IMG/VR virus record: IMGVR_UViG_3300025701_000041
Span: 1 to 28,319 of that record
From: a virus
Reading direction: 5' to 3' (one strand)
DNA length: 28,319 nt
In this document: positions 3,414 to 25,447 of the stretch, one piece after another
Numbering within the stretch: the first letter of the stretch is position 1
Layout: every line of letters begins with the position of its first letter
Translations under genes and position numbers: made by a program
The notes under the pieces: generated by a model
The model's input: the letters and a program-made list of their open reading frames with translations, nothing else
What the model was told of the DNA's origin: nothing
Database searches by the model: none

Positions 3414-5744
3414 ATGCCAACTATTACTGCTTCTGCTTCAATAACATTTACTGATGTAAGTGATGCTGTTGGTTATGAATATATCTACTCAAGAACAGTC
3501 GCGTCTATAACTGATGCGACTGATTTCCTACCTTCTCAACTACCTAGTAATAACTGGACTTATGGCAATCCTTCTCCTAACGGAAGTGTTGATGGTATTT
3601 CTTGGACTACTTTTGGTGAGAATGTCAGTCAAACCTTTCCTATTCTTTGGGAATGTCGACGTGTTATAGTCGGTAATCCATATGATGGCGAGAGTATTCC
3701 TGCTCAATGGGAAGATCCTACTATCGTTGGTATTGCTGGTATAGACGGTGTTGTTGGTCCTACTGGTCCTCGTGGCGCTACTGGCCCACGCGGTTCTCAA
3801 GGTATCCAAGGGTTAACTGGTATTCAGGGTACTATCGGACCACGTGGTCTTACGGGTACGCAAGGTCCTATCGGGACTCAAGGACCAAAAGGTTCTCAAG
3901 GTATCCAAGGTCCAACTGGACAACAAGGTCCAACTGGTATTCAAGGACCTGATGGTACTCAGGGTATCCAAGGTGTCACTGGTATTCAGGGACCGACTGG
4001 CCCACAGGGTACACAAGGTCCAAAAGGTACACAGGGAACCCAAGGTCCACAAGGAACTCAAGGTCCACAGGGTACACAGGGTCCGAAGGGAACACAGGGT
4101 ATTCAAGGACCAACTGGTATTCAAGGTCCAACTGGACCACAAGGCACACAGGGCATTCAGGGTACACAAGGTATTCAAGGCGTAACTGGTCCTCGTGGTA
4201 CTCAGGGTCCAAAAGGCACACAGGGTATTCAAGGAACTCAAGGTACACAGGGTCCTCAAGGAACACAAGGTCCTCGTGGTACTCAGGGTCCAAAAGGCAC
4301 ACAGGGTATTCAAGGTCCAACTGGACCACAGGGTACCCAAGGACCAAAAGGTACTCAAGGTATTCAAGGAACGCAAGGTCTAACTGGACCTAGAGGAACG
4401 CAAGGTCCAAAAGGTACTCAAGGTCCAAAAGGTACTCAAGGTATTCAAGGTCCTAGTGGTAGTGACGGTCCTACAGGTATCCAAGGACCTACAGGTATCC
4501 AAGGTCCATCTGGTCCACGGGGTACTAGAGGTGCTACTGGTCCTAGAGGAACTCGAGGTATTGAAGGTCCTGTTGGTACAATTGGTCCACAGGGTACAAT
4601 TGGTCCATCGGGTCCACAAGGACCACAGGGTACTAGAGGCCCGCAGGGAACGCAAGGTCCAAAAGGAACAATTGGCCCGCAAGGTAGTCAAGGTCCTAGA
4701 GGTTCTGTAGGTCCACAAGGAACACAAGGTCCACGTGGTGTAACTGGTATCCAAGGTTCCCAAGGTCCTAGAGGTTCTGTAGGTCCGTCTGGTCCTAGAG
4801 GTGTTACTGGTATTCAAGGTTCTCAAGGTCCCAAAGGTACGATTGGACCACAAGGACCATCTGGCCCTAGAGGTGTTACTGGTTCTCAAGGTCCTCAAGG
4901 TACACAGGGACCTAGAGGGACACAGGGACCGCGCGGTGTTACTGGTATTCAAGGTTCTCAGGGACCACAAGGTACTAGAGGTCCGCAGGGTACGCAAGGT
5001 CCTAGAGGTGTTACTGGTATTCAAGGTTCTCAAGGTCCACAAGGTACGCAAGGACCTAGAGGAACGCAAGGGCCACGTGGTGTAACTGGTATTCAAGGAA
5101 CTCAAGGTACACAGGGACCTAGAGGTACACAAGGTCCACAGGGTACTATTGGTCCACGTGGTAGTCAAGGTACAAGAGGTCCACAGGGTACACAGGGTCC
5201 ACAGGGTACTATTGGTCCACGCGGTAGTCAAGGTCCTAGAGGAACGCAAGGTCTACGAGGTCCATCTGGTCCACGTGGTATAACTGGTTTACAAGGAACA
5301 CAGGGACCACGTGGTTCTCAGGGTCCGAGAGGTTCTGTTGGTGATCGAGGTTCTAAAGGGCCTACTGGTACAATTGGTCCATCTGGTCCAGCTGGTTCTG
5401 CTGGTAATGCGATCGTATTTGATACTGACGCCACTATCAATGCTGATACTGGTTCAAGTTCTAAATCAGATCTGATCCGTCAGTTTAGAGGAGAAGACAT
5501 TCTACTCAAAAATGATACATATTGGCATATACAAACTGGTCGAGTGTTCCAATATCAAGGTGCTGATTACTCTGGTACGGGTGATAAGACATTCACTGAA
5601 GTTACTACTAACTCGGGTGGTATATTGAATCTGAATGGTCTTAGAAATACTGCTGCTTCTGGTGCTAGGATTGAGTTCCAAGGAGATAATATTCAAATAT
5701 ATGACGCTGGGGGTAAACTCAGGGTTAAATTGGGTAATTTATAA
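3414..5744 (+). CDS. Collagen-like tail fibre protein
   Basis: A 776-residue protein; AAAGGA precedes the ATG. Three parts are visible. Residues 1-105 form a beta-rich head ending in a WECRRVIVG...IPAQWEDP segment that resembles the Ig-like modules of the two upstream genes. Residues about 106-665 are an essentially unbroken Gly-X-Y tract of about 186 triplets, dominated by [15 protein letters not shown] and GPK. Residues 666-776 form a globular tail ending in [17 protein letters not shown]. The Gly-X-Y tract should form a collagen-type triple helix, giving a long thin trimeric shaft. Gln, Thr, Lys and Arg, rather than Pro, fill most Y positions, as is usual in prokaryotic and phage collagens that lack 4-hydroxyproline. 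A terminator follows. Confidence 0.93.
3729..5405 (+). repeat. Gly-X-Y collagen-like coding repeat
   Basis: This 1.7-kb tract is built from 9-base units (GGN NNN NNN) and larger near-repeats such as those encoding [14 protein letters not shown]. Synonymous variation (GGT/GGA/GGC, CAA/CAG, CGT/AGA) is high, so the DNA copies are diverged while the protein pattern is kept. Long false open frames in other frames and on the other strand are artefacts of this periodicity. Confidence 0.95.
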
Positions 5745-5795: not shown

Positions 5796-7067
5796 ATGAG
5801 TAAACGCACACCATTAATGTATCACGATGGCGACAACTGGAAGTTCTTTGAGTCATATGTCAAAGAGAATATGAACGTTGGTATATTCGTCGGTGGTGGA
5901 CCATCTTTAAATAAAATCGATATTTCAAAACTAACTGGTGCTGGTAAAACGGTAGTCGGTGTCAACACAACTTATCCTAAAGTGAGGCCTGATATATGGG
6001 TCGGTATGGACGAACCTTCATGTTACAACGAACACGTCTATAAAGAATCTTTTATGAAAATCACAAGAGGTGGTTTACAGAATCGTATTCTGGACGGACA
6101 TAAATTATCAGAATACCCGTTTGTTTATTTTGGAAACATGTTAGATTCTAAAGATCCAATGGACGTCTTCACTTGTTCGGAACCAGAAAGTGAAAACATT
6201 ATATGGGAGAAAAATGTATTCTCTACTACAATGAATATAATGTTACATATGGGGTTCAAAAAGATATACCTTGCTGGCGTAGACTTTGAGGTTTCTGAGG
6301 GTAGTTACTTTGATGATAGGGAAATGACGAAAGACCAAGATGCTTGGAATATGAATCTATACAATCACCTATATCATTATCTTGATTGGTTCGCTAAAGA
6401 ATGTAAGAAACGTGGTGTTGAAGTATACTCTATTAGTCCCGATTCTAAAATAAACGATTTAGTACCTTATATAGATTTAGATGAACTTAACGATTCTATA
6501 CATTTACCACCTAAAACTCTATTACACCACTCATCCGCATTCTTCACAGATCACTTAGTATCTGATGATTATATGAATACGTTGAAAAAAGAACATAGTA
6601 CAGAACATTGGGGTACTAGTGCTGGGTCTATGGTAGATACGTTACATGATTGGTTGAAACGTAATAATGCGAAAGAAGTTATCGACTATGGATGTGGTTC
6701 AAGTAGTTTTAAAAGCAACTTACCTGATGATGCTGACTATACCGTATATGAGTATGATCCAGGCATACCAGGAAAGGAAGGATTACATACACCTAAAGAC
6801 TTCTTAATATCAATTGACGTACTCGAACACGTAGAACCAGAACTGATAGATAATGTTATCCAACAAATCGCATCTAGTATAAAGGTACAAGGTTACTTAA
6901 CTATCGCGATGTATCCAGCTATGCGTATTCTACAAGACGGTAGAAACGCACACTTAATCGTAGAAGAAATGCCTTGGTGGGTAGAGAAACTATCAAAATA
7001 TCTAGATATTATTAGCATTAAAAAGACTAATGGTCAATTAGATGTCATAGCCGAACCTAAAAAGTGA
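5796..7067 (+). CDS. Bifunctional enzyme: DUF115/sialyltransferase-like domain fused to SAM methyltransferase
   Basis: A 423-residue cytoplasmic protein; AAGG eight bases upstream supports the ATG. The N-terminal half (about 1-220) is Rossmann-like: GIFVGGGPSLNK at residues 29-40, GVNTTYPKVRPDIWVGMDEP near 55-74 and KKIYLAGVDFE near 165-175. This pattern is seen in DUF115/Maf-type and bacterial sialyltransferase-like glycosyltransferases. The C-terminal part (about 265-423) is a class I SAM methyltransferase: EVIDYGCGSSSF near 292-303 is the glycine-rich SAM loop, and ISIDVLEHVEPE near 337-348 is the motif IV-like segment. The fusion lies directly behind a collagen-like fibre gene and in front of baseplate genes. 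It may therefore build or methylate a glycan on virion proteins. The donor and acceptor are unknown, and the N-terminal domain could instead bind another nucleotide-linked substrate. Confidence 0.82.
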   Translation: MSKRTPLMYHDGDNWKFFESYVKENMNVGIFVGGGPSLNKIDISKLTGAGKTVVGVNTTYPKVRPDIWVGMDEPSCYNEHVYKESFMKITRGGLQNRILDGHKLSEYPFVYFGNMLDSKDPMDVFTCSEPESENIIWEKNVFSTTMNIMLHMGFKKIYLAGVDFEVSEGSYFDDREMTKDQDAWNMNLYNHLYHYLDWFAKECKKRGVEVYSISPDSKINDLVPYIDLDELNDSIHLPPKTLLHHSSAFFTDHLVSDDYMNTLKKEHSTEHWGTSAGSMVDTLHDWLKRNNAKEVIDYGCGSSSFKSNLPDDADYTVYEYDPGIPGKEGLHTPKDFLISIDVLEHVEPELIDNVIQQIASSIKVQGYLTIAMYPAMRILQDGRNAHLIVEEMPWWVEKLSKYLDIISIKKTNGQLDVIAEPKK

Positions 7068-15277: not shown

Positions 15278-15733
15278 ATGGCAGATTATACTTTATCTTT
15301 TTCAAAAACTTTGAGTTTTGCTGGTAATTATACCAATTCTTTTGCTGGCAACTACATAGGCACGTACACAAAAACACGTACACCTACAAGACAATCAGCA
15401 TTTATCAAGGACTATACTGTAACTAGAGTATCGGCAAATGATATAACGCGCAGCAGTTCATATATCGGTTATTATACTAGTGCATTCACCACTAACGTAG
15501 AAAAGAACTCTACTAGAGATAATATTCAAGAAACTAACCGAGTTTTTTACACGGAAACATATGTTAGAAACGGTACGTCTGTTCGAAGTTTCACTAACAC
15601 AGTTACAAAATATTTCACGGGAAGTACTATAGTATATTATGGTACATCTTTTATTAGAACTTCTACGTACACTAGAGAAGAAGCGAGTATAACATTTACT
15701 TCTCCTACTTATAGTGGAACGATTGAACAATAG
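15278..15733 (+). CDS. Small aromatic/Ser/Thr tetrad-repeat protein
   Basis: A 151-residue protein; AAGGA overlaps the previous stop. Nearly the whole sequence is low complexity. It reads as diverged four-residue units with an aromatic residue or Arg in the first position, for example FAGN YTNS FAGN YIGT YTKT RTPT. It is the most degenerate of three neighbouring proteins with this pattern, the others being at 15743 and 17935. It lacks a separate globular domain, Cys and signal peptide. Its place in the tail operon suggests a virion component or a partner of the giant tetrad protein. I do not recognise a named family. Confidence 0.75.
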   Translation: MADYTLSFSKTLSFAGNYTNSFAGNYIGTYTKTRTPTRQSAFIKDYTVTRVSANDITRSSSYIGYYTSAFTTNVEKNSTRDNIQETNRVFYTETYVRNGTSVRSFTNTVTKYFTGSTIVYYGTSFIRTSTYTREEASITFTSPTYSGTIEQ

Positions 15734-15742
15734 AGATTAATT

Positions 15743-16492
15743 ATGCCCGCTAATTATTTCGTAGGGACTGTTTCACGGTCTAGTACATTAACCTTTGTTG
15801 GTACAGGTTCGTCCGCTGTATTTACTAGAAGTCGTGCTGCTGATTTTACTACTAGTAGATATTCGTCTTACACTAGAAAGATTTATCGTAATGCGATTGA
15901 AGGAAGTAGTGCCATATTCACCACGACATATGTCGGTGATTATATTGGCGACTTTACTAAGTATCGATACAGCGCATATGCGGGCAATTATAGTCGTGAC
16001 TTTATTGGTGACTACAGTCGTAGTTTTACGAGAAGTCGAGCGAGTTCTTTTAGTCGAGACTTTATTGGTAATTACACGCGCTCAGTAGATAAAACCTTTA
16101 TAGGTGATTATTCTCGTGAATTCATCGGTGAATCCACAAGAGTATCTTCGTACACCCGTACGCTTTCTGGTGGTTCGGGTGAAGGACCTACATATACTGC
16201 GACAGCATCTGATGCTGATTATGGTTTAATTGTTTATGGACCTGATGGTGTAACTGAAATAATTAACCCACAAACTAGGGTTATAAATATTGCGTACTAT
16301 GCTAATGTATCTGTATCAGGTAATTCATCAACAACTGTCACTATTGATGATGTTGGTGATCCTACTAAAGTTATGGTGTCATTTGTAACTCCTCAAAGAG
16401 GCATGACTTTATCTGCGTCAGGTAATACATTAACAGTAACCAATACATTTAGTTACAATAGAAATCCAACAATTCTAGCAATAAGGTTATAA
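15743..16492 (+). CDS. Chimeric tail protein: tetrad repeats plus YGLIV-type domain
   Basis: A 249-residue protein with two clear parts. Residues about 27-140 are tetrapeptide units such as YVGD YIGD FTKY RYSA YAGN YSRD FIGD, the same pattern as in the 1,837-residue protein. After a Gly/Ser linker (about 141-150), residues 153-249 form a beta-rich domain starting DYGLIVYGPDG, which resembles the beginning of the next gene (MSYGLIVKSFDAGG). The YGL[IR]V opening is seen in small phage tail proteins. The protein seems to join the repeat shaft to an ordinary tail domain. This suggests that the repeats are displayed on the virion rather than being an intracellular product. Confidence 0.8.
   Translation: MPANYFVGTVSRSSTLTFVGTGSSAVFTRSRAADFTTSRYSSYTRKIYRNAIEGSSAIFTTTYVGDYIGDFTKYRYSAYAGNYSRDFIGDYSRSFTRSRASSFSRDFIGNYTRSVDKTFIGDYSREFIGESTRVSSYTRTLSGGSGEGPTYTATASDADYGLIVYGPDGVTEIINPQTRVINIAYYANVSVSGNSSTTVTIDDVGDPTKVMVSFVTPQRGMTLSASGNTLTVTNTFSYNRNPTILAIRL
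15821..16162 (+). repeat. Tetrapeptide (12-base) coding repeat, short copy
   Basis: About 28 consecutive four-residue units of form [Y/F/R]-small-[R/G/S]-polar are visible. They keep phase through most of the tract and are more diverged than in the giant gene. Lys occurs here, unlike in the giant gene. Confidence 0.85.
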
Positions 16493-17258: not shown

Positions 17259-17726
17259 ATGAGTAAAGTAGTAAAATATGTTGCTACAATTGAGGAAAGT
17301 ACTGGTAGAATACTCAGTGTTGAATTTCCTCAAGTATCACTACCACCTGAACAAAGTAAAGATGGTCTAATTACAGTACATGTTACCGAAGATAATATGC
17401 CCGAAGGTTTTATGGGTATTGGTTTTAACCCATCATTATACTTTTGGGATGGTTCAGAATTCTTTCACGTAGGAACACCACCTAACAGACACGCTATATA
17501 CAATGGTACTGATTGGGAATGGGATGCTGACGCATTTATGTCAGATATCAAAGTTTTACGTAATCGTAAGATTGCTGCGACTGATTGGACTCAAACTGCT
17601 GATGCTCCGTTAACAGACGAACAAGTTGCTGCGTATCGGTTATACCGTCAATCATTACGTGACTTCCCTGCTACTTTAGACAATCCATCATCTCTTGATG
17701 AACTAGAATGGCCAGTCAAACCATAA
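17259..17726 (+). CDS. Phage tail assembly chaperone-like protein (Phage_tail_APC type)
   Basis: A 155-residue protein with AGAGGA upstream of the ATG. The C-terminal half has the characteristic motif RNRKIAATDWTQTADAPLTD followed by EQVAAYRLYRQSLRDFP (about 107-143), which matches small tail-assembly-chaperone-like proteins usually placed next to fibre genes. The N-terminal half is beta-rich with FYFWDGSEF-like segments and may bind a fibre. It is the last gene before a terminator and directly precedes the giant tetrad-repeat gene, so it could help fold or attach that protein. That partnership is inference. Confidence 0.8.
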   Translation: MSKVVKYVATIEESTGRILSVEFPQVSLPPEQSKDGLITVHVTEDNMPEGFMGIGFNPSLYFWDGSEFFHVGTPPNRHAIYNGTDWEWDADAFMSDIKVLRNRKIAATDWTQTADAPLTDEQVAAYRLYRQSLRDFPATLDNPSSLDELEWPVKP

Positions 17727-17934: not shown

Positions 17935-20900
17935 GTGTCAGCATCGAGTATCCCTTTAAAAATATACAATTCGAATGGTGACCTCAAGGAATTCACTCCG
18001 CTAGAAGAAAATTATCTGGCATATGCAGTGGGACAAGCAATGTTGAACCCTACAGACGTAGGTGCTCTATCATTGACTTCAGGTAATCCAGTCGGTTCAT
18101 ATGTAGATTCATTCTTCAATGAAGCGTCAGGTACTCACCCTGCATCTCAGATTACTTCTGGAACCACAACCACTACCTTAAAGCAAGTGGTTGGTCCAGC
18201 ATCTGAAAGCGGTATAAACATTCCTGTAGGTTATTACGCCGAAGGAGCAAGTCCAGGTTTCTACGAAATGGTAGACGCAGACTTGACTAACTTATGTAAT
18301 CGTGTTCTTGGTAATATGGTCGAGAATGACTATATTGGTACGTACAAACTATCTTCATCATCTCCTGGTTCAGATTATGCCATTTTCATCGAAAATGTAT
18401 TTACTGATACTCGTGGTGATGGAAACGCTACCAATTATCATATCTGGATCCGTACAGCAATGTCTGTTATCGGTCCAACTCGTCCAGTCAAAATTCGTTA
18501 CGACAACGGTAGTTTTGACGGTTTCCAAGAAATGACGGACGCTGAGATCCAAGATGTATTGGGTCAACGCATTAAAACTTTACGTGCCACAGCAGGCAAC
18601 ATCGGGTCATATCAATTACGGTCAAGTGTACAAGGTGCACCGACTGACGCTGGTGTTTGGAAAGCTGTAGGTACTGCGTTTAATACGCAAAGAACTACTT
18701 CGCAAATTGACTACACTCGTACACGTAACTCATCTTACGTTCGCGCACGTGTATCAACTTACGCACGTACACGTAGTTCATCATTCTCACGTGTTTCTAC
18801 ACGTACAACACATCAAGATTTCATTGGTGATTACGTTGGTAATTACACACGTGATTTTGCGGGCAATTATTCACGCGGTTTCGCTGGAGAATATGTCGGT
18901 GACTTCATTGGTAATTATATAAGAACTCGTGTATCTTCTTATACAAGAGATCGTCTACAAGCATTTACTGGTACATTCAGTGGTGTTTATTCTCGCGCTC
19001 GTGTATCAGTTTATACTCGTAATCGTATCACTGACTTTACTGGTTACTTTACACGCACACGTCCTTCGAGTTATGCTCGTGGTCGAGTATCTGCTTACGC
19101 TGGTACATATGCGCGTAATCGTGTTTCTGTTTATACAGGTACATATGCTCGTAACCGTATTTCAACATATACAGGTACTTACTCACGCGCTCGCGTATCT
19201 ACATACACTGGTAACTATGCCCGTGATTTCGTAGGTAACTATGCTCGTTCGTTTGTTGGTAACTATACTGGTGAGTTCTCACGTACTCGTAACAGTACTT
19301 TCACAGGTACTTACTCACGTACACGTGTTTCAACTTACGTCGGTAATTATGCTCGAGATTTCGTAGGTAACTATTCACGAAACTTTGCTGGTAACTACAC
19401 TGGTGAATTTACACGTACACGTAACAGCACCTTTGCTGGTACATACGGTAGAACTCGTGTATCTGCTTATACTGGTACTTACGCAAGAGACTTCGTAGGA
19501 AACTACGCTCGTGGGTTTACAGGTAATTACTCGCGCAACTTTACCCGTGGTCGTGTATCAACTTACACTGGTACTTACGCAAGAACTCGTGTATCTTCTT
19601 ACTCAGGTAACTACGCAAGAGACTTCGTAGGAAACTACGCTCGTGGATTCGTAGGTAATTATTCTCGTAACTTTACTCGTTCAAGAGTTTCTGCTTACGC
19701 TGGTACTTACTCAAGAACTCGTGTATCTGCTTATGCTGGTACATATTCGCGTAACCGTATTTCAACTTACTCGGGTACTTACTCAAGAACTCGTGTATCT
19801 GCTTATGCTGCGGATTATACTCGCGTTCGCGCTACCAACTTCACACGCGATCGTGTAACTAACTTTGCTGGTATCTATACTCGTGCTCGTGTATCAACTT
19901 ATGCTCGTACTCGTATTACAGATTTTGCTGGTAACTTCATTGGCAACTATTCTCGTGGGTTTGTAGGTGACTATGCTCGTGGGTTCGTTGGTAACTACGC
20001 TCGTGGATTTGCTGGCAATTTCGTCGGTAACTATGCCCGTACTTCTACACGTACTTCAGCAAGAACTCGTTACAGTGCTTATGCTCGTACACGTGCTGCT
20101 TCTTACGTAGGAAACTACTCAAGAAACTTTGCTGGCGAATATACAGGTAACTATTCTGGTGCTTATGCGACAACATTTACTGGCGACTTCGCAGGTAACT
20201 ATGCTCGTGGATATGCTGGTGAATATACAGGTAACTATTCTGGTGCTTATGCCCGTGATTTCGTCGGTGACTTCGCTGGTAATTATGCCCGTGCTTTCGC
20301 AGGTGACTTCGCTGGTAATTATGTTGGCAACTACGCTCGCGACTTCGTAGGTGACTTTGTTGGTAATTATGCTCGTGGATATGCTGGTGACTTCGCAGGC
20401 GATTTCGTAGGTAACTACGCAAGAACTTCTACACGTAATTCTATACGTAACCGTTACAGTGCTTATGCTCGTACATCAACGCGTACACGTTATAGTGCTT
20501 ATGCTCGTACAAGTACACGTACTTCTACGCGTACATTAACATATACTCGTGCGTTATATTACGCAGGAGACTTTGTTGGTAACTATGCGAGAACTCGCAT
20601 AACAGACTATACAACTACACCAACGTATGCTCGTGATCGTGCTTACTATCCAACATATACACGTGATCGTACTGTAGCATATGCTATAAGTCCTTCGTAT
20701 ACTCGTGGTCGTGTTTACTATCCTAACTATACTCGTACTCGTACTGCTTCTTATGTCGGTGACTATGCCCGTACTGCTTATTACACTGGTAACTATGCTC
20801 GTACATTGTATTACACTGGTAACTATGCCCGTACATATTACTACACTGGTAACTATGCCCGTACATATTACTATACTGGTAACTATGCTCGTACATTAAC

Positions 20901-23448
20901 ATACACTGGTAACTTTGTTGGTGATTACGCTCGTACTGGTTATTACACTGGTAACTATGCTCGTACTGGTTACTATACTGGTAATTTCGTTCGACATAAT
21001 GTAGGTTATTCTCGTACACTATACTTTACTACTCCTCAAGGTTGGGGTGGCGATCCTGGTGTGCCGAGTACGGTAACTAATTACTTTGTCGGTACTGGAG
21101 ATTTCACGCGTACTTCTACACGTACTTTAGCGTATGCCCGTACTTCTACGCGTACATTAGTATACACTAGAACTCGTGCTACTAACTATACAGTAAGTCC
21201 AGCGTATGCTCGTGACCGTGCTTACTATCCAACGTATGCTCGTGACCGTGCTTATTATCCGACGTATACTCGTGACCGTGCTTACTATCCAACGTATGCT
21301 CGTGACCGTGCTTACTATCCGACGTATACTCGTACTCGTGCTGCTTCTTATGTCGGTGACTACGCAAGAACATCGTACTATACTGGTAACTATGCTCGCA
21401 CGTTATATTACGTAGGTAACTTCGTTGGTAACTATGCTCGTACATTGTATTACACTGGTAACTATGCTCGTACATTAGTATATGCTGGAAACTTTGTTGG
21501 CGAATACGCTCGTACATCTACACGTACACGTACTGCTACTGGTTACTACACGCGTACTGGTTACTATGCTGGCGACTTTGTTGGTGATTACGCTCGTGGA
21601 TATGCTGGTGACTTTGTTGGTAACTACGCAAGAAACTTTGTTGGTGACTTCGCTGGTAACTTTGTTGGTGAATACGCTCGTACATCTACACGTACTTCTA
21701 CAAGAACTCGTTACAGCGCTTATGCTCGTACTCGTGTAACTAACTATGTTGGTGACTTTACACGTACATCTACTCGTACAAGTACTCGTACTCGTTACAG
21801 TGCTTATGCTCGTACTCGTGTAACTAACTATGTCGGTAACTTCGTTGGTGCTTATACTCGCGTATCTAACCGTACACGTTACAGTGCTTATACTCGTACA
21901 CGTATTACAGATTATGTTGGTGACTTCGTTGGCGCTTATACTCGCGTATCTAACCGCACACGTGTTTCTGCTTATGCCCGTACACGTAACGCGTCTTACG
22001 TTGGTAATTACGCTCGTGCTTTCGCAGGTAACTACGCTGGTGACTTTGTTGGTGAATACACTCGTACTTCAGCAAGAACTCGTTACAGTGCTTATGCTCG
22101 TACACGAATTTCTACTTACGCTCGTACTCGTAACTCAGCATATGCTCGTGATCGTGTAACTACGTTTACTGGTGATTTTGTTGGTAACTACGCAAGAACG
22201 TTTACTGGAAATTACGCACGTAACTTCGCTGGTAACTTTATTGGTGATTATGTCGGTAACTTTACAGGTAATTACGTCGGTAACTATAACCGTGGATTCG
22301 TAGGTGAATATACGGGTACATATTCTAGAGGTTTCTCTGGTCAATATGCTGGTACTTACTCTCGCGGTTTCGTAGGTGAATATGCTGGTACTTACACTCG
22401 TGCCTTTGCGGGCAACTATGCTGGCGCGTTTACACGTACACGTGTTTCTGCTTATACTCGTTCACGTCCAAGTTCATATGCTGGTACTTACACTCGCGGT
22501 TTCGTAGGTGAATACACTGGTACATATGCGACTACGTTTACTGGTAACTATGCTAACTCGTATAGTCGTAATCGTATCTCGACATATTCTAGAACTCGTC
22601 CAAGTTCGTACTCAGGTACTTACTCGCGTAACTTCGCTGGCGAATATACTGGAACATATGCTAGTGATTATATCGGTAACTACTCGCGCGACTTCACTCG
22701 TTCGCGTAACAGTGCTTATGCTCGTACACGCGTATCTACATACGCTGGTAACTATGCTCGCGACTTTATCGGTGAATATACTGGAGTTTATGCTCGCGAT
22801 TACGTAGGTAATTACTCACGTAACTTCTTACGTACACGTTTTGAGTATTACTCACGTACACGTGGTTCAGCATATGCTGGCACATATACTCGTGCGTTTG
22901 CTGGTGAATATACTGGTACATACAACCGTGGTTTCGCTGGTGAATATACTGGTACATACAACCGTGGGTTTGCTGGTGAATATACTGGTACATACAACAG
23001 AACGTTTACTGGTGATTATGCTCGCGATTACGTAGGAAACTACGCTCGTGACTTTGCTGGCGACTTCGCTGGTAATTACTCAAGAACGTTTGCTGGCGAT
23101 TACACAGGTAACTATCAACGTGATTTCGTTGGTAACTTCGTTGGTAACTATACTCGCGACTTTATCGGTGAATATACACGTAACTCGGTAAACACGTTCT
23201 CAAGAGTTCGCGTATCTGCTTACTCGCGTTTACGTACAAGTGCTTACACAGATAACTATGCGCGTACACGTGTATCAAGTTATGCTGGTAACTACACTGG
23301 CGACTATGTCGGTGAGTTTGTAGGTAACTATGCTCGCGATTACGTAGGTAACTACTCACGTGCGTTTATCGGTAACTATGTTGGTTTGACAATCAATCCA
23401 ACGTTCTCAATTGTTGAGACTTACACGTTATATGTAAGAGTTGCTTAA
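17935..23448 (+). CDS. Giant tetrapeptide-repeat virion/fibre protein (1,837 aa)
   Basis: The start is a GTG with AGAGAG (17921-17926) eight bases upstream; no better ATG lies before the globular domain. Residues 1-259 form an ordinary domain, opening LKIYNSNGDLKEFTPLEENYLAYAVG, with an internal duplication (GFYEMVDADL and GFQEMTDAEI). Residues 260-1817 are about 389 four-residue units: position 1 Tyr/Phe/Arg, position 2 Ala/Val/Thr/Ser/Ile, position 3 Gly/Arg/Ser, position 4 Asn/Asp/Thr/Ala/Gly. Examples are YARD, FVGN, YSRN, RVSA and YAGT. The tract contains no Lys, Cys or Met that I can see and is very rich in Arg and Tyr. One non-repeat insert occurs near 1018-1057 (contains GWGGDPG). The last 20 residues are non-repeat. 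It is a single-gene transcription unit. It is probably an extended fibre; no catalytic motif is present. Confidence 0.9.
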   Translation: MSASSIPLKIYNSNGDLKEFTPLEENYLAYAVGQAMLNPTDVGALSLTSGNPVGSYVDSFFNEASGTHPASQITSGTTTTTLKQVVGPASESGINIPVGYYAEGASPGFYEMVDADLTNLCNRVLGNMVENDYIGTYKLSSSSPGSDYAIFIENVFTDTRGDGNATNYHIWIRTAMSVIGPTRPVKIRYDNGSFDGFQEMTDAEIQDVLGQRIKTLRATAGNIGSYQLRSSVQGAPTDAGVWKAVGTAFNTQRTTSQIDYTRTRNSSYVRARVSTYARTRSSSFSRVSTRTTHQDFIGDYVGNYTRDFAGNYSRGFAGEYVGDFIGNYIRTRVSSYTRDRLQAFTGTFSGVYSRARVSVYTRNRITDFTGYFTRTRPSSYARGRVSAYAGTYARNRVSVYTGTYARNRISTYTGTYSRARVSTYTGNYARDFVGNYARSFVGNYTGEFSRTRNSTFTGTYSRTRVSTYVGNYARDFVGNYSRNFAGNYTGEFTRTRNSTFAGTYGRTRVSAYTGTYARDFVGNYARGFTGNYSRNFTRGRVSTYTGTYARTRVSSYSGNYARDFVGNYARGFVGNYSRNFTRSRVSAYAGTYSRTRVSAYAGTYSRNRISTYSGTYSRTRVSAYAADYTRVRATNFTRDRVTNFAGIYTRARVSTYARTRITDFAGNFIGNYSRGFVGDYARGFVGNYARGFAGNFVGNYARTSTRTSARTRYSAYARTRAASYVGNYSRNFAGEYTGNYSGAYATTFTGDFAGNYARGYAGEYTGNYSGAYARDFVGDFAGNYARAFAGDFAGNYVGNYARDFVGDFVGNYARGYAGDFAGDFVGNYARTSTRNSIRNRYSAYARTSTRTRYSAYARTSTRTSTRTLTYTRALYYAGDFVGNYARTRITDYTTTPTYARDRAYYPTYTRDRTVAYAISPSYTRGRVYYPNYTRTRTASYVGDYARTAYYTGNYARTLYYTGNYARTYYYTGNYARTYYYTGNYARTLTYTGNFVGDYARTGYYTGNYARTGYYTGNFVRHNVGYSRTLYFTTPQGWGGDPGVPSTVTNYFVGTGDFTRTSTRTLAYARTSTRTLVYTRTRATNYTVSPAYARDRAYYPTYARDRAYYPTYTRDRAYYPTYARDRAYYPTYTRTRAASYVGDYARTSYYTGNYARTLYYVGNFVGNYARTLYYTGNYARTLVYAGNFVGEYARTSTRTRTATGYYTRTGYYAGDFVGDYARGYAGDFVGNYARNFVGDFAGNFVGEYARTSTRTSTRTRYSAYARTRVTNYVGDFTRTSTRTSTRTRYSAYARTRVTNYVGNFVGAYTRVSNRTRYSAYTRTRITDYVGDFVGAYTRVSNRTRVSAYARTRNASYVGNYARAFAGNYAGDFVGEYTRTSARTRYSAYARTRISTYARTRNSAYARDRVTTFTGDFVGNYARTFTGNYARNFAGNFIGDYVGNFTGNYVGNYNRGFVGEYTGTYSRGFSGQYAGTYSRGFVGEYAGTYTRAFAGNYAGAFTRTRVSAYTRSRPSSYAGTYTRGFVGEYTGTYATTFTGNYANSYSRNRISTYSRTRPSSYSGTYSRNFAGEYTGTYASDYIGNYSRDFTRSRNSAYARTRVSTYAGNYARDFIGEYTGVYARDYVGNYSRNFLRTRFEYYSRTRGSAYAGTYTRAFAGEYTGTYNRGFAGEYTGTYNRGFAGEYTGTYNRTFTGDYARDYVGNYARDFAGDFAGNYSRTFAGDYTGNYQRDFVGNFVGNYTRDFIGEYTRNSVNTFSRVRVSAYSRLRTSAYTDNYARTRVSSYAGNYTGDYVGEFVGNYARDYVGNYSRAFIGNYVGLTINPTFSIVETYTLYVRVA
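20779..20898 (+). repeat. Four tandem 30-base repeats encoding YYTGNYART-x
   Basis: Four consecutive 30-base units encode YYTGNYART followed by Leu or Tyr (the fourth ends in Leu). Related copies follow after a short break near 20939-20990. Differences are mostly silent (GCT/GCC, TAT/TAC), indicating recent tandem duplication inside the tetrad tract. Confidence 0.88.
21205..21324 (+). repeat. Four tandem 30-base repeats encoding Y-x-RDRAYYPT
   Basis: Four nearly identical 30-base units encode YARDRAYYPT or YTRDRAYYPT. A diverged copy lies upstream near 20625-20660. The near identity suggests recent expansion or gene conversion, and this is a likely site of copy-number change. Confidence 0.9.
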
Positions 23449-23560: not shown

Positions 23561-24022
23561 ATGAGTTACAGAAAATGGTTAGACAATGCGTTTTGGGAAG
23601 ATGAAACTAAATCCCAAGTGAATTGTATTTTAGAAATGGAAGACGACGTCGGTCGTGTTACTCGTCAAGTTATGAAACTAAATCGTTTAGATAAAGACGG
23701 TAACGAAAACGAATTATTTAATGAAGTTGTTGATTCTGTCACTGAAGAACTAATCGACAAAGAAACTAATGATCGTGTTGAACGCAAGAAAGCGGAACAA
23801 GACGAACATAGACAACGTGAACTCGAACACGAGAAAGCACGAAAATTAGAAAAACTTTTCAACTACAAGCTAGAAGCATTTGAAGTTGAAGAGATTAAGA
23901 ATTCCAAGAACAGAAAGCTGAAAGGTAAATTGCGTCGTGCTAAGTCACGAATCGAAGTAGATCTATATTCTATCATGATCCTTCAAGAGCAACTAGAGGC
24001 AGATTCGAATGGAAAAGACTAA
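23561..24022 (+). CDS. Charged coiled-coil protein of unknown function
   Basis: A 153-residue protein, first gene after the sigma70-like promoter, with GGAG eight bases before the ATG. It opens MSYRKWLDNAFWEDE, and residues about 60-150 are a very charged helix (Glu, Lys, Arg) with heptad-like apolar positions. No enzyme motif, signal or membrane segment is visible. Its last 14 bases overlap the next gene, which suggests coupled translation with the glycosyltransferase. Lys/Glu-rich composition sharply contrasts with the Lys-free repeats just upstream. Regulatory or scaffolding roles are possible, but there is no evidence for either. Confidence 0.8.
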   Translation: MSYRKWLDNAFWEDETKSQVNCILEMEDDVGRVTRQVMKLNRLDKDGNENELFNEVVDSVTEELIDKETNDRVERKKAEQDEHRQRELEHEKARKLEKLFNYKLEAFEVEEIKNSKNRKLKGKLRRAKSRIEVDLYSIMILQEQLEADSNGKD

Positions 24023-24743
24023 AGGTTTTGTTATCGTTGCGTCTCATAAACGCAACTTTTATTTGTATGCGCTGAATTTAGCTGAGTCTATTCGCGATTT
24101 TTATGAACCCGAAGAAGAATGTAATATCTGTTTAGTTACAGAAGAACGTTTTATCGACGACCGTGGTTATGATGTTGCTGATGAAGTAATCTTTTGTGAT
24201 GATCACTATCGTTCTAAATTATGGGGTATGGCCAAGTCTCCTTACGACTTAACTATGTACATTGACGCTGACATGGAATGTGAGCATGAAGATATTATTA
24301 AAGTATGGGATGAGATGAAAGACTATGATATGGTCTACTCTGAACTTACTGATGACCGTGACTACATTTACGCGGAACGTGATTTTGATACACCAGAAGG
24401 TAAATCTAAATTTACTCTATGTGGTGGTGTTTGTTTATATGATATGAGCAAACCAATCGTCCGTGAATTTATGGATGACTGGTGGGACTTAACATATCGT
24501 CAAATGAACGATACTTGGTGGCCAGATGGTTACGCTGATTCACTTAAATCTTGGGATCAGTTTTCATTATGGTGGCTTACCGAGAAAGAAGAAAAATATA
24601 AAGACCTTAAAATCGGAATCTTTGATGATGATTTAAGGTGGAACTACTATAACGCTTTTAACTGGGCAAGAACTCAGCCAAAAGATCCTGTCATTTTACG
24701 ACACTTTTCGGCTGGTCTAGACAAGGATAAACCGATCGTATGA
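24009..24743 (+). CDS. GT-A-fold glycosyltransferase
   Basis: A 244-residue soluble protein. The N-terminus GFVIVASHKRNFYLYALNLA is the first beta strand and nucleotide-binding region of a GT-A fold. Residues 84-89 read YIDADM, with D86-A87-D88 as the DxD metal/nucleotide-sugar motif, following a WGMAKSPYDLTM segment as in GT8-like enzymes. Later CGGVCLYDMSKPIV and WWPDGYADSLKSWDQFSLWW resemble acceptor-side segments. It overlaps the preceding gene by 14 bases (AGAGG lies nine to ten bases upstream) and the next one by four (ATGA). It probably transfers a sugar from a nucleotide donor to a protein or glycan. The acceptor could be a virion fibre or a host molecule; the sequence does not decide this. 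Confidence 0.82.
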   Translation: MEKTKGFVIVASHKRNFYLYALNLAESIRDFYEPEEECNICLVTEERFIDDRGYDVADEVIFCDDHYRSKLWGMAKSPYDLTMYIDADMECEHEDIIKVWDEMKDYDMVYSELTDDRDYIYAERDFDTPEGKSKFTLCGGVCLYDMSKPIVREFMDDWWDLTYRQMNDTWWPDGYADSLKSWDQFSLWWLTEKEEKYKDLKIGIFDDDLRWNYYNAFNWARTQPKDPVILRHFSAGLDKDKPIV

Positions 24744-25447
24744 CACAGATTAATGACCAATATTTAAAACATGTTGAGGTAAATAATCCTGAACTGTTAG
24801 AAATCCTAAACGAGTATGCTAAATTACATACTATTGAAGGGTTCGAAAAAAACTGCCACTTGACCGCAAAAGAACATGCGCGTCAACGTCCTCATTGGAT
24901 GGGCGAAGAATATCGTAAAGAAGTGATGGGTCAAGGTCCAGCACATGAAGGCTTTCCTGATATGATCGTTGGGTACAATTTTAAACTCGCTGATAGATCT
25001 CATACGTTTTTTGAACGTGATGCTGATCCTGTCTTTAAGCGCGACTTGACACATAAGTTGAGTGACCTAAATGGCAAGATGATGAATTTCTTATCTGTCA
25101 AGCATAATGCGTTATGTGCCGTCTATCCTCCAGGTGGTTTCATTTCTTGGCATAGTAACCATAATGCTCCTGGGTATAATCTGATATTCTCATATTCAGA
25201 AACAGGTGATGGTCACTTCTCTTATGTTCATCCTGAAACTAAAGAAGTTGTTAAATGCGAAGACGCTGTAGGTAAGTGGACTTGTAAAGCAGCATACTTT
25301 GGTTCTTGGACTGAACAAGATAAAGTTTTATATCATGCTGCTGAAACAGATTGTTGGCGTGTCACAGTTTCTTACGTATTTGATATGTCTGAAACTTCTG
25401 ATGAATTACGCGAAATGATCCTAGAAGACATCTCTTCTCCAGTATAA
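24740..25447 (+). CDS. 2OG-Fe(II) oxygenase-like protein
   Basis: A 235-residue soluble protein starting in an ATGA overlap with the glycosyltransferase; no strong ribosome-binding site, so translation is probably coupled. Residues 130-155 contain YPPGGFISWHSNHNAPGY, and near 199-215 there is LYHAAETDCWRVTVSYVF. This is the layout of the double-stranded beta-helix oxygenases common in marine T4-like phages: proximal metal His at 138, distal His at 199 and a 2-oxoglutarate-binding Arg at 207. The usual Asp of HxD is Asn at 140, a possible active-site change. The substrate might be a Lys, Pro or other residue of a virion protein, or a small molecule. The family call is moderately sure; activity is not. 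Confidence 0.7.
   Translation: MTQINDQYLKHVEVNNPELLEILNEYAKLHTIEGFEKNCHLTAKEHARQRPHWMGEEYRKEVMGQGPAHEGFPDMIVGYNFKLADRSHTFFERDADPVFKRDLTHKLSDLNGKMMNFLSVKHNALCAVYPPGGFISWHSNHNAPGYNLIFSYSETGDGHFSYVHPETKEVVKCEDAVGKWTCKAAYFGSWTEQDKVLYHAAETDCWRVTVSYVFDMSETSDELREMILEDISSPV

Follow-up and report, generated by a model that had tools for sequence, protein, structure and literature searches.

A tetrapeptide-repeat protein from a T4-like phage that probably folds back on itself into a giant beta-hairpin fibre

The IMG/VR virus fragment examined here spans 28,319 bases (hereafter the window, meaning that whole stretch of DNA). Its plus strand carries a gene starting with GTG (positions 17935-23448), which encodes a protein of 1,837 amino acids. 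Between residues ~260 and 1815 this protein consists of a tract of four-residue units, raising the question of which structure such a chain might adopt and what purpose it might serve for the phage. The preliminary description of this locus had put forward two answers, a new beta-solenoid or fibrous fold and a polymer of Tyr and Arg stickers.

The tetrad can be written as [YF/R][A/V/T/S][G/R/S][N/D/T], with Tyr, Phe or Arg at position 1, a small residue at position 2, Gly, Arg or Ser at position 3 and a polar residue at position 4. Identity within the tract at lags 4, 8 and 12 amounts to 0.19, 0.26 and 0.295, against an expected 0.106 and no more than 0.133 in 1,000 shuffles, in full support of the open reading frame, tract boundaries and tetrad pattern first proposed. 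Odd lags are depleted (identity ~0.03), pointing to a two-residue alternation along the whole tract, and 12-residue super-repeats are present as well. The composition count likewise bears out the reported lack of Lys, Cys and Met, with Tyr plus Phe at 20.8% and Arg at 13.8%. A single phase maintained for kilobases, as initially described, was instead not found: two in-phase blocks (residues ~260-900 and 1190-1815) differ in phase, and between them lies a non-repetitive centre flanked by 10-residue units. Such a phase change between the blocks is what a fold-back of the chain predicts. We also noted a direct duplication at residues ~860-1040 and ~1085-1215, whose decapeptide units, YYPTYARDRA and YYTGNYART, occur on either side of the tip described below.

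The dN/dS ratio of the tract, calculated on locally alignable stretches with a filter that biases the value down somewhat, is 0.07-0.26; the frame is therefore translated and under purifying selection, contrary to the concern that it might not be translated at all. Database searches agreed with the earlier view that the repeat belongs to no named family, pentapeptide, collagen and TPR repeats included. Specifically, the whole protein found no match in Pfam even at an E-value of 10 and none in a PDB sequence search at E<=1, and its best PHROG match (0.002) is to a family of unknown function. In addition, a literature search returned no paper on the tetrad repeat or on Phage C48C1, a carrier of this protein introduced below.

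Scans of IMG/VR led to 37 loci; a profile built on the N-terminal domain then gave 225 matches, and 80 of these were kept. Together with the Phage C48C1 protein, these relatives range from 331 to 3,347 amino acids and all share the N-terminal domain and the last residues, which read ETYTLYVRVA, or TLKLWLRIA in distant members; these family-wide anchors at both ends had escaped the preliminary description. The aromatic content is constant (median 18.6%) and Lys is near zero throughout, whereas Arg varies from 1 to 15%; in one group it falls to ~2%, with ~13% Asp/Glu instead. The invariant feature is thus an aromatic lattice rather than an Arg/Tyr mixture. Phage C48C1 (Kyanoviridae) is the sole carrier of the protein among 50,697 phage records. 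A true relative also occurs on the 142-kb contig L309; the assignment of this contig to a Sphingobacteriales MAG is a weak hint at a host. Matches in bacterial genomes (L310-L330), from gut Gastranaerophilales and other MAGs, were rejected as chance matches: these proteins are autotransporter-like, and their GDITGDFIGNY...GGAIYN repeats include no tetrads.

The two ends of the protein offer an entry point to the architecture of the tract. Structure prediction of segments, suggested at the outset, was run as AlphaFold2 monomers. Residues 1-250 were modelled with pLDDT mostly of 85-96 as three modules, the third without its last strand. Modules 1 and 2 (residues 1-180, positions 17935-18474) are each predicted to end in a beta-hairpin, as supported by a strand motif, and AlphaFold2 and a position-specific scoring matrix (PSSM) place the incomplete module 3 at residues 181-252 (positions 18475-18690). 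When the PSSM of the last strand of module 2 was run along the 86 non-redundant proteins, the C-terminal tail was the top match outside module 2 in 71 and among the top three in 85, its usual competitor being the same strand of module 1. On this basis we take the closing strand ETYTLYVRVA (positions 23413-23445) to be the strand that module 3 lacks, and the tract to be inserted in that hairpin; since the ends of the tract meet, the chain must run out and return. A Foldseek search with the N-domain model against PDB and BFVD gave no match at E<=0.001, and the best VIA-align match was an unconvincing Z of 2.9; the model used carried a disordered tail, and a new fold is not thereby proven. In the predictions covering residues 1-500 and 1390-1837 the pLDDT of the tract was below 40 nearly throughout. 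The two arms lie in separate models, so that a hairpin of such size could not form in either of them.

We then asked at which register the two halves of the tract are related. Mutual information between residue classes, computed with 80 residues per end and the tip left out, peaks at the register predicted from the anchors, and the peak was recovered separately in the acidic members and in the short members (z of 5.2 and 4.7, respectively). Register searches were started from positions out to +-100; nearly all of them ended at most 4 residues from the predicted one, and no wrong start was self-sustaining. On the window protein, the best of ~2,300 fold centres is i+j=2077 with 527 bits, the next one elsewhere reaching 217, and shuffling the tetrads within one arm reduces the score to 81+-34 (maximum 197, n=1,000). 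The same value of 2077 emerged among 2,100 centres when the pairing table was learned from 28 distant proteins alone. In 29 of the 49 long proteins scanned singly, with no learned table, the predicted register came out on top; for the window it ranked first among 801. Carrying over the register from the predicted hairpin of module 2 gives 2079, compared to the observed 2077; offsets 0 and -2 score alike, the register being certain to ~2 residues.

The best fold-back segment of the window protein is a single gapless duplex of 768 pairs, with a score of 425, in which the outgoing arm (residues 253-1020, positions 18691-20994) pairs with the returning arm (residues 1057-1824, positions 21103-23406). 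Shuffled tracts score 20-21, and the controls, namely other window proteins and the fibre of S-RIM2, 10-26. Duplexes elsewhere comprise 885 pairs in L008, 948 pairs in L049 and 453 pairs in L047. For 31 of the 71 proteins the best-scoring segment lies off the predicted register; C48C1 is among them, and most are either short or degenerate or have an extra hairpin. The arms of the window protein enclose a tip loop (residues 1021-1056, positions 20995-21102) with a predicted centre at 1038.5, in QGW|GGDPGVP; the tip holds GGDPG. In 40 of the 71 proteins (7.1 expected, P 5e-22), the 20 least tetrad-like residues lie no further than 5% from the centre of the tract. Tips differ strongly among relatives and some hold a larger inserted segment. 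A related inserted segment, EGG...DG...GG.TYYRG, was observed in the tips of the L039, L089, L083, L076 and L010 proteins, and similar segments seem to be present in MSYG-type proteins, too.

A second line of evidence comes from insertions and deletions. As many as 54 of 134 events have a mirror-positioned partner of equal size (26 disjoint pairs of closely related proteins), compared to a mean of 6.9 and a maximum of 18 in 2,000 trials of random placement. For instance, 60 residues at distances of 268 and 267 from the left and right ends, 84 residues at 302/302 and 44 residues at 301/301 are matched in this way, and a compound case combines 12 residues at 478/474 with 10 residues at 546/539. 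Some indels have no mirror partner, e.g., 24 residues in L051/L053. Among indels of at least 3 residues, 161 of 206 are multiples of 4 and 203 of 206 are even, counts that do not represent fully independent events; mostly they are not multiples of 8 or 12. All together, four tests (covariation, tip position, duplex extent and indels) agree: the two halves covary residue by residue at a single constant sum i+j, and compensating indels keep the arms equal, as is expected of a self-paired hairpin.

The pairs found at this register show distinct preferences. Aromatic-Arg pairs are enriched (log2 odds of +1.9/+1.6), as are aromatic-Gly (+0.75), Arg-Gly (+1.4), Val-Val (+2.0) and Asn with Asn or Asp (+1.6 to +2.0), whereas aromatic-aromatic, Arg-Arg and Gly-Gly pairs are strongly avoided. 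Mirror symmetry of residue identity gave no unique peak, because the pairs are complementary rather than identical. A DNA palindrome was also discarded as the cause, reverse-complement identity at the register being just 0.17.

As judged by these sequence statistics, the tract folds back in a single register, with a central tip and arms of equal length, and we regard it as very probable that the tract, inserted in the hairpin at the end of module 3, forms a giant antiparallel beta-hairpin and acts as a fibre that presents a variable tip. In such a structure, the chain would exit module 3 at residue ~253, extend outward for ~768 residues, turn in the 36-residue non-repetitive tip and come back in register (i+j = 2077), finally supplying ETYTLYVRVA as the strand that completes module 3. 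Aromatics would line one face of the ribbon, each opposite an Arg or Gly from the partner arm; the second face, small and polar, would carry Val-Val, Thr-Thr, Asn-Asn and Asn-Asp pairs. An aromatic residue of one arm would always be opposite position 3 of the other, which would explain the tetrad. The beta conformation of the arms is suggested by the two-residue alternation, the confidently predicted hairpin anchors and the beta-type pair preferences. An extended ribbon rises by ~3.3 Å per residue, and from this value we predict a fibre of ~255 nm, if straight; a coiled two-start hairpin is possible.

What such a structure would be used for is suggested by the neighbouring genes. The window corresponds to a baseplate/tail-fibre block of a T4-like phage, comprising a gp8 baseplate wedge, a gp9/10-type protein, a collagen-like fibre, a tail-tip fibre, a tail assembly chaperone and later fibre genes. 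The collagen-like fibre contains GTQGPx repeats (positions 3414-5744) and is followed by a methyltransferase/MptE-like fusion gene (5796-7067). The gene of the tetrad protein sits within a tail-fibre/baseplate block together with a chaperone, a Phage_tail_APC protein (17259-17726, plus strand; PF16778, E 4e-16) encoded directly upstream in the main clade. Two further upstream genes on the plus strand, overlooked in the preliminary description, encode short tetrad tracts (15278-15733 and 15743-16492), the latter with a separate C-terminal domain; these small neighbours gave no strong fold-back signal. Upstream tetrad proteins with other N- and C-terminal domains were also seen in relatives (L011:6387-10490, L039:4960-9273, L014:7077-10574). 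Larger other tetrad proteins, including the MSYG type, have weak fold-back scores of 38-44, compared to 10-26 for the controls.

Downstream, on the same strand, come in nearly every case genes for a protein of ~153 amino acids, a glycosyltransferase-like protein and an oxygenase-like protein. In the window, the first is a conserved, charged 153-aa protein (23561-24022), a possible chaperone or adaptor. The second is a GT-A-like glycosyltransferase candidate (24009-24743), proposed on the basis of a YIDADME (DxD) motif, linkage and weak profile matches: 8 of 11 members of its family match Glycos_transf_2 below threshold (best 4e-4), and one matches GT8 (9e-4). The third is a 2OG-Fe(II)-oxygenase-like candidate (24740-25447), named after a motif resemblance (invariant H-x-N...H...R); it lacks the H-x-[DE]...H facial triad and has no Pfam or PDB match. 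Two further oxygenase-like paralogues per genome were noted in C48C1 (18273-18896 and 40127-40801) and in the long-contig relatives. For the glycosyltransferase-like gene, 80 close homologues were examined; 77 are accompanied by a tetrad protein with this C-terminal tail, and the other 3 have too little upstream sequence. In 70 more distant loci such a protein is linked wherever the upstream sequence suffices, except in L255, where a family member lies elsewhere in the locus. A search of bacterial genomes for the glycosyltransferase-like gene found none. Profiles of the N-domain and of the cassette both hit seven genomes of the group, and neither hit the five reference marine phages P-SSM2, HTVC008M, S-SM2, P-HM1 and S-RIM2. 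The adjacent glycosyltransferase-like and oxygenase-like candidates may modify the fibre.

From this neighbourhood we infer that the protein is most likely a virion tail fibre or adhesin made by a single gene, keeping a variable tip away from the virion to contact the host. The location in the virion is deduced from the neighbouring genes, and for this reason the hairpin could be correct and yet belong to the capsid, the neck, a secreted adhesin or an intracellular function. We consider such a role unlikely, though worth keeping in mind, given that in nearly all relatives the gene lies between baseplate/tail-fibre genes and fibre chaperones.

A different arrangement would have the arms of one chain running antiparallel to those of another subunit. 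Covariation cannot separate pairing in cis from pairing in trans, and phage fibres are usually oligomers; the closing strand and the central turn (GGDPG in the window, loops of 7-29 residues in forked members) suit, however, a chain folding on itself, and we hold a domain-swapped pairing to be rather improbable. The forked members are three proteins (L021:5569-10926, L118:10001-15244 and L108:10001-15802) in which an outer stem of ~380 pairs encloses a nested second hairpin of ~220-320 pairs; the C48C1 protein is possibly forked as well.

Much less weight falls on a chain winding one way to give either a beta-solenoid or a trimeric, T4 gp5C-like triple-stranded beta-helix in which the tetrads would form half-strands or sides. 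Its appeal lies in the two-residue alternation and the G-[ND] pairs, which recall gp5C, in the 12-residue super-repeats and in strands 12 residues apart in the low-confidence model. Nevertheless, it predicts neither the mirrored indels, nor covariation at constant i+j, nor a central tip, nor a C-terminal tail completing module 3, and the indels, mostly in multiples of 4, for the most part do not follow steps of 8 or 12. In addition, gp5C is octad-periodic, with identities of 0.08, 0.41 and 0.07 at lags 4, 8 and 12, and the tract (0.19/0.26/0.295) does not show its G-[ND]-x4-V-x octapeptide periodicity. Of the first proposal, then, a new fibrous beta structure fits the data; the one-way solenoid is disfavoured, as it leaves the matching length and register of the two halves unexplained. 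Finally, a disordered Tyr/Arg polymer adhering to surfaces or forming condensates, though reminiscent of sticker-spacer proteins in composition (Tyr/Phe 21%, Arg 14%, no Lys) and in agreement with a tract pLDDT mostly below 40, is scarcely credible in view of the strict position alphabets, the register-specific pairing of the halves, the mirrored indels and the fact that some members have acidic residues in place of Arg but keep their aromatics.

The giant hairpin preferred here would have several consequences. Phages of marine metagenomes would build a fibre from one gene, with over 1,500 residues of a single chain paired among themselves in exact register and with a length expected to scale with arm length; beta duplexes would have a readable pairing code; compensatory indels would occur in a protein in a manner comparable to the evolution of RNA stems; the tip that contacts the host could be located within a very large protein of low complexity; and the fibre would have its own candidate modification enzymes. 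More generally, the case would show that a solvable structure signal can be present where AlphaFold2 offers no model. We think it likely that these proteins represent a new class, a self-templated beta duplex of up to ~950 residue pairs with RNA-stem-like pairing rules, mirror indels, forked members and exchangeable tips. The architecture appears unlike any in the libraries searched and, as far as the tools reach, a new kind of fibre.

Among the known systems with which the window protein can be compared, Phage C48C1 CDS0201 (3,347 aa, annotated as 'hypothetical protein') is a homologue sharing the N-domain, the tail strand, the neighbours and the cassette, but differing in nested stems that lie off the simple register. 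A structural protein of cyanophage S-RIM2 (L045:3990-9728) has a four-residue period with Gly-Asn in its VTGN repeats; these are, however, aliphatic rather than aromatic, match gp5C weakly in sequence and give no fold-back signal. T4 gp5C is likewise a fibrous phage-tail protein with Gly and Asn/Asp in a short beta repeat, but there an octapeptide is repeated in three chains running one way over about 110 Å (PMC3004832), whereas here tetrads occur in one chain that is probably paired with itself. Elongated antiparallel hairpins emerging from a globular body are known from tail-fibre chaperones, where they form tentacles (gp9 of Alteromonas phage A5; the intramolecular chaperones of T5 and K1F); the longest one modelled in that study measures about 88 Å (PMC10579305). 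This is the longest hairpin found in our literature search, and the predicted hairpin of the window is ~30 times longer, and repetitive. Finally, the T4 long tail fibre (gp34-gp37), about 1440 Å in length (PMC3004832), is similarly long, of the same length order, encoded in the tail region and served by dedicated chaperones. In that case four gene products form parallel homotrimers ending in a C-terminal tip, whereas the fibre proposed here would derive from a single gene, with a chain running out and back and a tip in the middle of the sequence.
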